Origin: Candidatus Cacconaster scatequi
GTDB taxonomy: Bacteria > Bacteroidota > Bacteroidia > Bacteroidales > UBA932
Length of the DNA stretch: 59,835 bases
NCBI GenBank assembly: GCA_018065305.1
Contig: JAGHTO010000053.1
Location: 1 to 59,835, forward strand
Reading direction: 5' to 3'
The stretch's first letter is position 1; the number at the start of each line of letters is the position of its first letter. Positions 48,812 to 50,229 of the stretch are shown piece by piece. The position numbers and the translations under genes are program-made. Under the pieces are notes generated by a model. It did not search any database and had not been told where the DNA came from. It worked only from the letters and a program-made list of their open reading frames with translations.

Positions 48812-49192
48812 ATGGATTTAATGAAGATTGCACAGGAAGCATGTGCACAGGAAAAGAAAAATTTCCCCGCTTTCAAGGCAGGTGATACCATCACCGTCAC
48901 CTACAAAATCAAGGAAGAGAACAAGGAACGTCTCCAGAAATTCCGCGGAATAGTAATCCAGAAGCGCGGTGCAGGTGCAGTAAAGACCTTCACAGTACGC
49001 AAGATTTCCAACGGAGTCGGTGTGGAGAGAATATTCCCCTTCTCATCACCTTTCATCGAGGATATCGAAGTCAACAAGTACGGTAAAGTACGTCGCGCCC
49101 GAATATTCTACCTCCGCGGCCTGACCGGTAAGAAGGCTCGTATCAAAGAGAAGAAGTTCACTGCTCAGACTGCAGCTCCCGCTGCCGAGTAA
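48812..49192 (+). CDS. rplS: Large-subunit ribosomal protein L19 (bL19)
   Basis: This is a protein of the 50S subunit at the interface with the 30S subunit. It is 126 aa. The family signature is clear: [56 protein letters not shown] and [20 protein letters not shown]. The ATG at 48812 gives the normal N-terminus (MDLMKIAQE), whereas a TTG at 48803 adds three residues. It is followed 9 nt later by tRNA-Arg and is likely co-transcribed with it. Confidence 0.98.
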
Positions 49193-49201
49193 CGACATAA
49201 A

Positions 49202-49278
49202 GGCTCCTTAGCTCAACTGAATAGAGCATCTGACTACGGATCAGAAGGTTGTGGGTTTGAATCCCGCAGGAGTCACCA
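49202..49278 (+). tRNA. tRNA-Arg (anticodon ACG)
   Basis: This is a 77-nt cloverleaf with the CCA end encoded (49276-49278). The acceptor stem GGCTCCT pairs with AGGAGTC (one G:U). The anticodon loop CTACGGA has ACG at 49236-49238 between TCTGA and TCAGA. The T arm reads TTTGAAT inside a GTGGG/CCCGC stem. A34 is expected to be converted to inosine. Confidence 0.95.
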
Positions 49279-49293
49279 GTGCAGAGCACATCA

Positions 49294-49415
49294 GGCGAAG
49301 ATGCCGCAACATTCGTTGCGGCATCTTCAGTTGTGAGACCTGCCGTCGAAAGCTAGCTTTCGCAAGGCAGGTCTCACAACTGAAGATGGCGGGGCACAGC
49401 CCCGCCATCTTCGCC
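49294..49415. repeat. Cluster of overlapping perfect palindromes after tRNA-Arg
   Basis: There are three hairpins. H1 (49297-49328) has a 14-bp perfect stem GAAGATGCCGCAAC with a 4-nt loop. H2 pairs 49322-49344 with 49366-49388, a perfect 23-bp stem starting CATCTTCAGTTGTGAG, with the 16-bp palindrome CGAAAGCTAGCTTTCG (49347-49362) in its loop. H3 (49382-49412) has a 14-bp perfect stem GAAGATGGCGGGGC with a 3-nt loop. H2 shares 7 nt with each neighbour, so H2 excludes full H1 and H3. An outer 10-bp repeat, GGCGAAGATG / CATCTTCGCC, encloses everything (49294-49303, 49406-49415). It is GC-rich and unlike the AT-rich spacers around it. Confidence 0.85.
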
Positions 49416-49560
49416 CATCCCGCGCTTTGCCGTGACGACGCCAGGGAAGTGCGACGTAGTCGCAAATCCTGCTTTTTGCAGGGAAAAGGCACGGCGTCAG
49501 CCGTGGCTAATCCCGGCAATGCAGGAAAAGTCGCGCGCAGCGAGGTTAATCCTGCTTAAT
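49416..49560. repeat. Second GC-rich block of small hairpins
   Basis: TGCGAC-GTA-GTCGCA (49450-49464), CCTGC-TTTTT-GCAGG (49468-49482) and CACGGC-GTCA-GCCGTG (49490-49505) are three perfect small hairpins. The words ATCCTGCTT (twice) and GCAGG(G)AAAAG (twice) recur in the block. Together with the palindromes before it, this forms a REP/BIME-like noncoding tract of about 270 bp ending at the AT-rich UpxY leader. No convincing protein is encoded on either strand. Confidence 0.7.
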
Positions 49561-49586
49561 TGTTTCTTTTTTTTAAAAAATTGATG

Positions 49587-49749
49587 TAAATTTGGAAAAT
49601 TTTAGCAATCGGCGGTGATTCTGTCACTAGGGTCTAGGGCGGGTCACATCAGAGATTGACAACTGAATGCCGGAACTTTTTCCGTTCCGTGCTGCTTCGT
49701 CAGCATTTGTGGGAACGGGGAGGGGAAGGTCTGTACCTGAGAAAACGAT
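49587..49749 (+). promoter_or_regulatory. Promoter and long leader of the polysaccharide locus
   Basis: TAAATTTG (49587-49594) is a perfect -7 box, but no TTTG lies at the proper upstream distance. The leader of about 150 nt contains CGGAAC / GTTCCG (about 49674-49691) and GCTG / CAGC stem-loops before the UpxY ATG. Such leaders are where UpxY antiterminators are expected to be recruited, but the element itself could not be identified. Confidence 0.5.
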
Positions 49750-50229
49750 ATGTACAACAGTAATGACAATTTGAGGTGGTTTGCGATCAGAATGATTCGC
49801 GACAGGAAGTATATCCTCAGGTACATCGAACTCGAAGGAATCGAAACATCCCGGATCAATGACATTCGGACTCTGCTTTTCCTTCACTGCAAACAGAATG
49901 AGATAGAAACACTGAGAGGCGAACTGTGGGATCGCGCTCTCTTCTATAGAGATGCCGCTCGGAAGCGCGTCCAGCAGATTCCGGACAATGTGATGAAGAC
50001 CTTTCTGATACTGGCTCCGTATCACGATGAGCCGGTTTTCTATCTTCCGGTAGATGACCCCTCCTTTTTCGAAGGTAAACATAAACGCGTGAGATCCGGC
50101 ATTTTCGCCGGCTGCGAAGGCGTTATCAAAAGAATAAAGGGCGAGCGCCGCCTCATCATCAGAATTTCCGACAGGGCTGCGGTCGCCACGCCGTACATCC
50201 CTCAGGACATGCTTGAAGACATTGAATGA
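49750..50229 (+). CDS. UpxY-type NusG-paralog transcription antiterminator
   Basis: This specialised NusG paralog would bind RNA polymerase and prevent premature termination in the downstream polysaccharide operon. It is 159 aa. The N-terminal NGN-like domain begins with LRWFAIRMIRDRKYILRYI (conserved Trp near the start). The C-terminal KOW segment is GIFAGCEGVIKRIKGERRLII. It is the first gene of a polysaccharide cluster, exactly where UpxY proteins sit in Bacteroides capsule loci. No UpxZ-like inhibitor gene is next to it. Its gap to the next gene is 21 nt. Confidence 0.85.
   Translation: MYNSNDNLRWFAIRMIRDRKYILRYIELEGIETSRINDIRTLLFLHCKQNEIETLRGELWDRALFYRDAARKRVQQIPDNVMKTFLILAPYHDEPVFYLPVDDPSFFEGKHKRVRSGIFAGCEGVIKRIKGERRLIIRISDRAAVATPYIPQDMLEDIE

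Follow-up and report, generated by a model that had tools for sequence, protein, structure and literature searches.

A hairpin tract behind a tRNA-Arg gene of Candidatus Cacconaster scatequi, probably the left half of a small gene-less cassette integrated in the tRNA 3' part

The ICEs, IMEs and prophages that integrate at tRNA genes use a tyrosine recombinase and target the tRNA 3' end. In integrons, the cassette ends in the attC site, an imperfect hairpin that includes mismatches, outer arms, and a stem and loop that vary; its 3' arm is the recombined core, and the attC core sequences are GTTRRRY/RYYYAAC. MITEs, REPINs and PATEs are short, non-coding and hairpin-rich, and are presumably moved in trans. 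REP/BIME units are given as more than 100 dispersed copies per genome in the available text of PMC2817692. Palindromic candidate RNAs have been described in Bacteroidetes, one of them near phage integrase domains, and the part of that account available to us makes no link between them and tRNA genes (PMC8040213).

The window analysed here, a stretch of 59,835 bases of Candidatus Cacconaster scatequi, contains a dense tract of hairpins directly behind a tRNA-Arg gene. We consider it quite likely that this tract forms the left half of a mobile cassette, very small and without genes, that has integrated site-specifically in the 3' part (T-arm) of the tRNA. Its relatives occupy tRNA gene ends mainly in uncultured gut members of the Bacteroidales. 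This is the best reading because a structural family with the same architecture lies behind tRNA genes, its right-end hairpins (module B) copy tRNA T-arms, and empty and filled sites occur at tRNA-Gly. Like the known tRNA-integrated elements, the cassettes have a duplicated tRNA 3'-end target (17 nt at tRNA-Gly) and would restore the tRNA; however, they are about 0.2 kb long and gene-less, whereas ICEs, IMEs and prophages are kilobases in length and carry an integrase. They resemble integron cassettes in being small, inserted at one anchored site, sometimes in tandem, and closed by an imperfect right-end hairpin, but the anchor is a tRNA T-arm and not attI, no gene is carried, and, unlike in integron cassettes, the left end combines a four-way junction with the 3' end of a tRNA. 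No integron integrase was seen beside the cassettes. Short, non-coding, rich in hairpins and presumably moved in trans, they are also comparable with MITEs, REPINs and PATEs, from which they differ in targeting tRNA genes, in having a tRNA end as core, and in occupying only 1 to 5 places per genome with matches (genus search). MITEs of a DDE transposase have terminal inverted repeats and a short target duplication made by the transposase, whereas the tRNA-Gly duplication is the 17-nt tRNA end. The literature searched, with most subscription papers outside it, contained no description of a gene-less hairpin cassette at tRNA genes.

The initial annotation had described three perfect hairpins of 14, 23 and 14 bp, the central one overlapping each neighbour by 7 nt, and the inverted-repeat search bears this out. 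H1 (49297-49310/49315-49328) and H3 (49382-49395/49399-49412) are perfect inverted repeats of 14 bp. The central pair (49319-49344/49366-49391) matches at 96% over 26 nt and includes the perfect 23 bp of H2 (49322-49344/49366-49388), which encloses the 16-nt palindrome CGAAAGCTAGCTTTCG at 49347-49362 and by its coordinates has 7 nt in common with both H1 and H3; an outer pair (49294-49306/49403-49415) matches at 92% over 13 nt. These hairpins are far beyond chance. With loops of up to 25, they are the only perfect hairpins of the window with arms longer than 10 bp, and 10 bp was the maximum in three Markov shuffles of the window. As RNA the tract folds at -105.6 kcal/mol, where shuffles average -49 (z -14.2), and DNA parameters give a z of -13.0. 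The RNA and DNA folds are alike, with H1, H2, H3 and a short outer stem around one four-way junction, at which only the shared heptamers GAAGATG/CATCTTC can migrate between the arms. Because all three stems coexist in both folds, the hairpins are not mutually exclusive; the idea that the tract folds as H1 plus H3 or as H2 but never both is therefore abandoned, and with it the attenuator built on such a switch. The features of the window copy are as follows, module B being the right-end hairpin of the relatives.

49202..49278, + strand: tRNA-Arg(ACG) with encoded CCA, the likely integration target (ARAGORN, Rfam)
49260..49278, + strand: putative tRNA-side copy of the att core, AATCCCGCAGGAGTCACCA, made up of the T-loop AAT, the 3' strand of the T-stem and the acceptor 3' end
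49281..49297, + strand: 5' strand of the outer stem, degenerate here, with the inner 4 bp GGCG/CGCC intact (folds)
49297..49328, + strand: H1, perfect 14-bp hairpin in the place of the tRNA terminator of relatives, here without a T-run
49322..49388, + strand: H2, perfect 23-bp central hairpin, whose arms differ from element to element
49347..49362, + strand: conserved tip of H2, family pattern GAAAGCTNGCTTTC (alignments, pattern search)
49382..49412, + strand: H3, perfect 14-bp hairpin (inverted repeats, folds)
49412..49437, + strand: 3' strand of the outer stem and start of the tail, CGCC..CTTTGCCGTGACG (folds; comparable tails in relatives)
49442..49471, + strand: first module-B-like hairpin, ending in AATCCTG (49465), at a position comparable to module B of relatives
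49481..49515, + strand: second module-B-like hairpin, ending in AATCCCG (49509-49515), identical to the T-arm 7-mer of its own tRNA (49260-49266)
49522..49556, + strand: third module-B-like hairpin, with AATCCTG (49548) near its end

The att core of the window copy is placed by comparison, since displaced elements elsewhere start behind the equivalent part of a tRNA, and that part is duplicated in the filled tRNA-Gly sites. The outer stem is stronger in most relatives than it is here. Further downstream, the open reading frame at 49750-50229, called a polysaccharide antiterminator, had no Pfam match at 0.001, and it is followed by capsule genes (Polysacc_synt_2, Poly_export, Wzz). The link proposed to this capsule locus found no evidence, and relatives of the tract adjoin other tRNA genes and have other neighbours.

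At the level of sequence the tract stands alone. BLAST against its own genome returned only the tract itself and its own inverted arms, hence no dispersed copies there; the same tRNA-Arg was matched in 31 of the 40 genus genomes, and beyond the own genome the match took in only the tRNA itself plus up to about 17 nt. Of the relatives at this tRNA-Arg, some have a plain terminator; in others there is a cloverleaf whose arms are very different and whose H2 tip GAAAGCTNGCTTTC is shared. The own genome has the tip pattern at three places: once behind the tRNA-Arg of the window, and once each immediately after two tRNA-Ser genes. Of 21 central hairpins collected, 14 were aligned, the other 7 being left out for their mutually offset arms, and in this alignment the arms of relatives differ widely while their pairing is kept: 139 cells were changed on both sides against 43.3 in shuffles, and slid versions of the alignment gave a covariation of at most 0.25. 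A tract that proved unique, not conserved and free of covariation had been named as grounds for giving up the original observation; this describes its sequence, as the BLAST result shows, but not its structure, with 93.4% of the H2 cells paired and a covariation of 0.922 (0.205 in shuffles).

A covariance model built on the central hairpin, with matches counted at E of 0.001 or below, found relatives in 25 of the 40 genomes of the genus, including the three places of the own genome. Under filters stricter than those of the genus search, matches were obtained in 45 of 249 family genomes (8 of the 25 family genera), in 15 of 393 order genomes and in 4 of 395 phylum genomes, the last two counts including the own genome. 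The sole match beyond the order (L223) lies behind a tRNA-Ala gene. Among the order-level loci examined, 12 of 15 lie behind a tRNA and three do not; these three are probably chance palindromes, and two of them recur among the phylum matches.

The relatives are tied to tRNA genes. A complete tRNA on the same strand ends within 140 nt of the hairpin centre at 72 of 81 loci, and the tRNAs concerned are Ser, Arg, Met, Gly, Ala, His and Leu. Eight of the other nine loci start behind the last 15 to 23 nt of a tRNA (scores 13 to 17, against 11 for the best of 200 random windows), which leaves L078 as the one locus without a tRNA end. The suggestion that tRNA-Arg serves as an integration site, and the tract as a place of recombination, is thus strengthened by relatives that are left halves of elements at tRNA 3' ends. 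At L140, a single long hairpin bearing the shared tip comes immediately after tRNA-Arg(TCT), and H1 and H3 are absent.

The shared architecture is a family of four-way junctions with a strongly covarying central hairpin. Of the 76 elements parsed, with L026 counted a second time as L084, 72 have exactly three branches around the junction, inside the outer stem. The junction has no unpaired nucleotide in 9 of these 72, the window copy among them, and 1 to 11 in the others; the length of H2 is narrowly distributed, with a median of 62 nt and quartiles of 60 and 64 (n=75). In many elements a tail and a second hairpin follow. This is module B, which consists of GGGAATGCGCAG, a variable stem and loop, and GAGCACAATCCC. 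The exact pattern was present in 13 of the 40 genus genomes and was not found in the own genome. It was recovered from 57 genomic stretches of Bacteroidales/Bacteroidia bacteria, Muribaculum sp. An289 and Candidatus Cacconaster, where 54 of 68 matches lie no more than 450 bp behind a tRNA of the same strand, and viral contigs contained none. In ten rows of equal length, 99.3% of the cells are paired and both sides have changed in 8 cells (2.3 in shuffles); this covariation is carried by two pairs alone, 12 of the 14 pairs being invariant, and the invariance of the outer arms follows by construction because the search pattern fixed them.

The right end of the cassettes is this imperfect hairpin, and its 3' arm mostly copies the T-arm 7-mer of the host tRNA. 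Among elements passing a hairpin filter (a perfect 5-nt complement of the arm upstream; at most 75 elements offered), the final 7-mer of module B equals the T-arm 7-mer of the own tRNA in 29 of 35 and differs from it in 6 (R' 7-mer), whereas 5,000 label shuffles gave a mean of 7.1 and a maximum of 15. The 7-mers follow the tRNA, with AATCTCG at Gly and Ser-GCT, AATCCGA at Ala, AATCTTG at Leu, and AATCCTG at Met and some Arg. With the filter removed, the own core's score was matched by fewer than 5% of foreign cores in 20 of 73 elements (control 1.9%), while in the other 53 the own core is not distinct from foreign ones; an own-core score of at least 10 was reached by 9 of the 73 (control 0.27%). 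An initial test that required 18 exact nt had found no direct copies of tRNA 3' ends, because the right-hand cores measure 17 nt or less. From core to core, the cassettes measured extend over 183 to 288 bp, with a median of 213.

Several variants of these parts were observed. At L008 and L014, other sequence replaces the left half of the cassette, and part of H3, the tail and module B remain. Inverted copies of tRNA-Ser 3' ends, judged by eye, surround module B at L046, L051, L095, L097 and L104 and make a larger palindrome. Partial cassette repeats start at or near hairpin tips at 4 of the 9 loci with partial repeats (L092, L095, L098, L126), and by eye L180, L205 and L207 show the same kind of start, as if hairpins were cut or copied at the tip.

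Direct evidence of insertion comes from tRNA-Gly. At the empty site L260 (genome G206), a plain terminator and direct repeats come straight after the tRNA, and a tyrosine recombinase gene (Arm-DNA-bind_5, Phage_int_SAM_5) begins behind them. At the filled sites L261 (in the same genome as L260), L263, L264 and L265, a single extra block lies between tRNA-Gly and the same flank. The right end of this block repeats the 17-nt tRNA end with 0 to 2 changes, and the old flank resumes after this second core. The tRNA-Gly cassettes measure 182 to 184 bp from core to core in all five measured (L261-L265). Two consecutive cassettes, of which the second is truncated, are present in L262, and in Muribaculum sp. 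An289 (L190:6020-6700) a tandem of 176-bp partial cassettes stands behind tRNA-Ser(GGA), so that cassettes are also found in tandem behind one tRNA. The unit of about 183 bp at tRNA-Gly encodes no integrase, integrases being seen only in adjoining sequence. The comparison concerns one tRNA, in a genus of the family other than that of the window, and for this tRNA-Gly it demonstrates site-specific insertion with duplication of the core.

For the window copy, the cassette reading rests on this family evidence and is put forward as likely. Since the AATCCCG of the second module-B-like hairpin matches the tRNA-Arg of the window, the cassette probably runs from 49260 to about 49515, with the hairpin at 49481..49515 as its probable right end and 249 bp from core to core; one extra module-B-like hairpin would then lie inside it and one behind. 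The right-hand core has shrunk to the 7 nt AATCCCG, and two of the three module-B-like hairpins end in AATCCTG, a mismatch to this tRNA-Arg. The copy looks old.

How such a unit might move can be sketched by analogy. The incoming cassette would carry its own tRNA 3' end and H1, so that the tRNA would be restored and a terminator regained. Recognition may depend on structure and not on arm sequence, as with integron attC sites, and module B may recombine as a folded strand against the duplex T-arm of the tRNA, through a putative tyrosine recombinase encoded elsewhere and acting in trans. Module B and attC are alike in being imperfect hairpins with outer arms and a variable, covarying stem, but the arms GGGAATGCGCAG and GAGCACAATCCC differ from the attC R'/R'' cores given above. 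Integron-like recombination of folded strands is a possibility.

The central hairpin adds a further peculiarity. L114 and L118 have identical tRNAs, and their upstream and downstream parts are 97% and 99% identical, yet their H2 cores agree at only 60%, which is the level of random pairs (56%, sd 7). The same pattern is seen in L112/L113 and L088/L089, while L069/L074, L110/L111 and L096/L126 show slow change; among the similar pairs listed, the H2 core is less alike than both flanks in 14 of 27. It seems that the H2 arms can be swapped as one block within an otherwise unchanged element. A search of G009, G037 and G032 gave no clear source for the swapped arm of L118, only matches with 3 mismatches besides itself, and these were fewer than in the control. 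The idea that an H2 arm is a guide or spacer was dropped after the arm gave no other match in the own genome at up to 2 mismatches and no exact match in viral contigs. An origin from phages or plasmids was likewise set aside, as module B is absent from viral contigs and a distant blastn search of L087 against plasmids and phages returned nothing. A tree was built from the element sequences without H2 (74 rows, 134 columns), and 42 of its 70 inner forks are open. A supported clade mixes genera and tRNA-Ser isoacceptors, joining L116 with L132, L135 and L136, and copies of the same genome group together in places (L064 with L086).

A wider reading would make all this one tRNA-anchored counterpart of integrons, in which T-arms are the anchors, cassettes of about 0.2 kb are stacked, some right ends may close gene cassettes, a recombinase recognising structure acts in trans, and the exchange of H2 is part of the same process. 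We regard it as a tentative proposal, possible but less likely than not. Module B stands behind protein genes at six loci (L195, L148, L151 at 7137, L160, L185 and L186), none of which showed an array of module B gene cassettes. At L195:175-841, module B follows an open reading frame that by eye is ParD-like, a possible gene cassette.

The strongest competitor to the cassette is a resident host structure, a two-way terminator or insulator of tRNA genes that would be inherited vertically and evolve by compensatory changes, with H1 and H3 stopping opposite transcripts. A T-rich stretch (at least 5 T in 9 nt) follows H1 in 61 of 72 elements, much as in intrinsic tRNA terminators, where a G+C-rich hairpin precedes a T-run, and an A-rich one (at least 5 A in 9 nt) precedes H3 in 59 of 72; several element-less tRNA-Arg genes of the genus have plain terminators at the very same place. 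An excess of G.U over A.C pairs is a sign of selection in the sense of an RNA, and in the tRNA sense H1 has 29 G.U against 1 A.C over the family. The terminator reading nevertheless leaves several observations aside. It does not account for the duplicated tRNA end that sets filled sites apart from empty ones, for tandem copies, or for the T-arm of the own tRNA in module B; H3 (14 G.U, 26 A.C) and the outer stem (10 and 15) show no RNA-sense selection of this kind; and on the tRNA strand of the window no terminator-like site was found within 49100-49800, so that a terminator role of H1 is not evident in the window copy. We consider the resident structure unlikely. Within the cassette reading, H1 differs from a plain intrinsic terminator in being one arm of a larger mobile unit, and it probably replaces the terminator lost on insertion.

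A second alternative is that the tracts are cis-mobilisable remnants, tRNA-integrated islands that lost their middle and kept two ends, with small size as a mark of decay. Full-size tyrosine-recombinase elements do use the same tRNA cores as the cassettes, and module B stands behind protein genes at the six loci named above. In G009 (C12:80264-100262; L199, L200), a 20-kb island with a tyrosine recombinase and PriCT_2/DUF3987 and BT4734-like_N proteins is flanked on one side by a complete tRNA-Ser(CGA) with a cassette and on the other by a tRNA 3' fragment with a second cassette. Beside three displaced copies examined, L201 has a clear tyrosine recombinase, and L202 and L204 have candidates under the Pfam cut-off; four candidate integrases beside displaced copies fall under the cut-off of every NCBIfam model. 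Against decay stand the near-constant length of the tRNA-Gly cassettes and an architecture that recurs in 8 of 25 family genera. Moreover, other tRNA flanks (L007, L010, L020 and L260, the last with a recombinase gene) consist of a plain terminator and direct repeats and lack the cloverleaf, in contrast to the cassettes. We judge the remnant reading improbable. Among tRNA-Arg flanks of this other kind, those of L007, L010, L011, L019, L022 and L025 have direct repeats such as TTTGCACAACATTTGCACAAC behind a plain terminator; flanks of this type are possibly the attachment regions of full-size elements. In G014, a complete tRNA-Arg with a plain terminator (L020) and a displaced tRNA-Arg end with a cloverleaf (L062) would be the two ends of one island, though they lie on different contigs. 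From their comparison the cloverleaf appears to predate the island, which makes it doubtful that a cloverleaf always belongs to the island beside it.

Third, the four-way junction could be the fold of an RNA made as part of the tRNA transcript, such as a trailer cut by RNase III or a small RNA. The excess of G.U pairs in H1 extends to the base and middle of the H2 arms (81 G.U against 14 A.C), and neither would be predicted from a pure DNA role. Folding the reverse complement gave the mirror result for H2 (70 A.C, 20 G.U), which rules out a bias of the folding program. However, no excess exists near the H2 tip (10:16 and 11:12), nor in H3 and the outer stem; the duplicated tRNA end and the T-arm copy in module B would be left unexplained; and Rfam 15 at gathering score gave only tRNA in the window, L063, L087 and L206, and nothing in L190. 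A purely RNA role is thus rejected on the split outcome of the pair test, and the broader RNA reading appears very improbable. We read the data as tRNA transcripts that reach H1 and at times H2, the remainder of the structure being kept at the DNA level. Finally, a REP/BIME repeat or a capsule-operon attenuator, as first suggested for a palindromic, intergenic tract upstream of a capsule locus, has next to no probability, since REP/BIME units come in many dispersed intergenic copies whereas this genome has three places, each behind a tRNA gene, and the hairpins coexist.

The site-specific tRNA cassette, which we hold to be likely, bears on a main route of horizontal transfer. Insertion at tRNA 3' ends is known from elements that are kilobase-long and bring their own integrase, and here a unit of about 0.2 kb without any gene uses the same target. 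It occurs in 25 of the 40 genus genomes and in 8 of the 25 family genera. The cassette would restore the tRNA and apparently supplies it with a new terminator. With it one can ask, in a clean natural system, whether shape is all that a recombinase needs to recognise DNA, and the annotation of tRNA 3' flanks in gut Bacteroidales would change.
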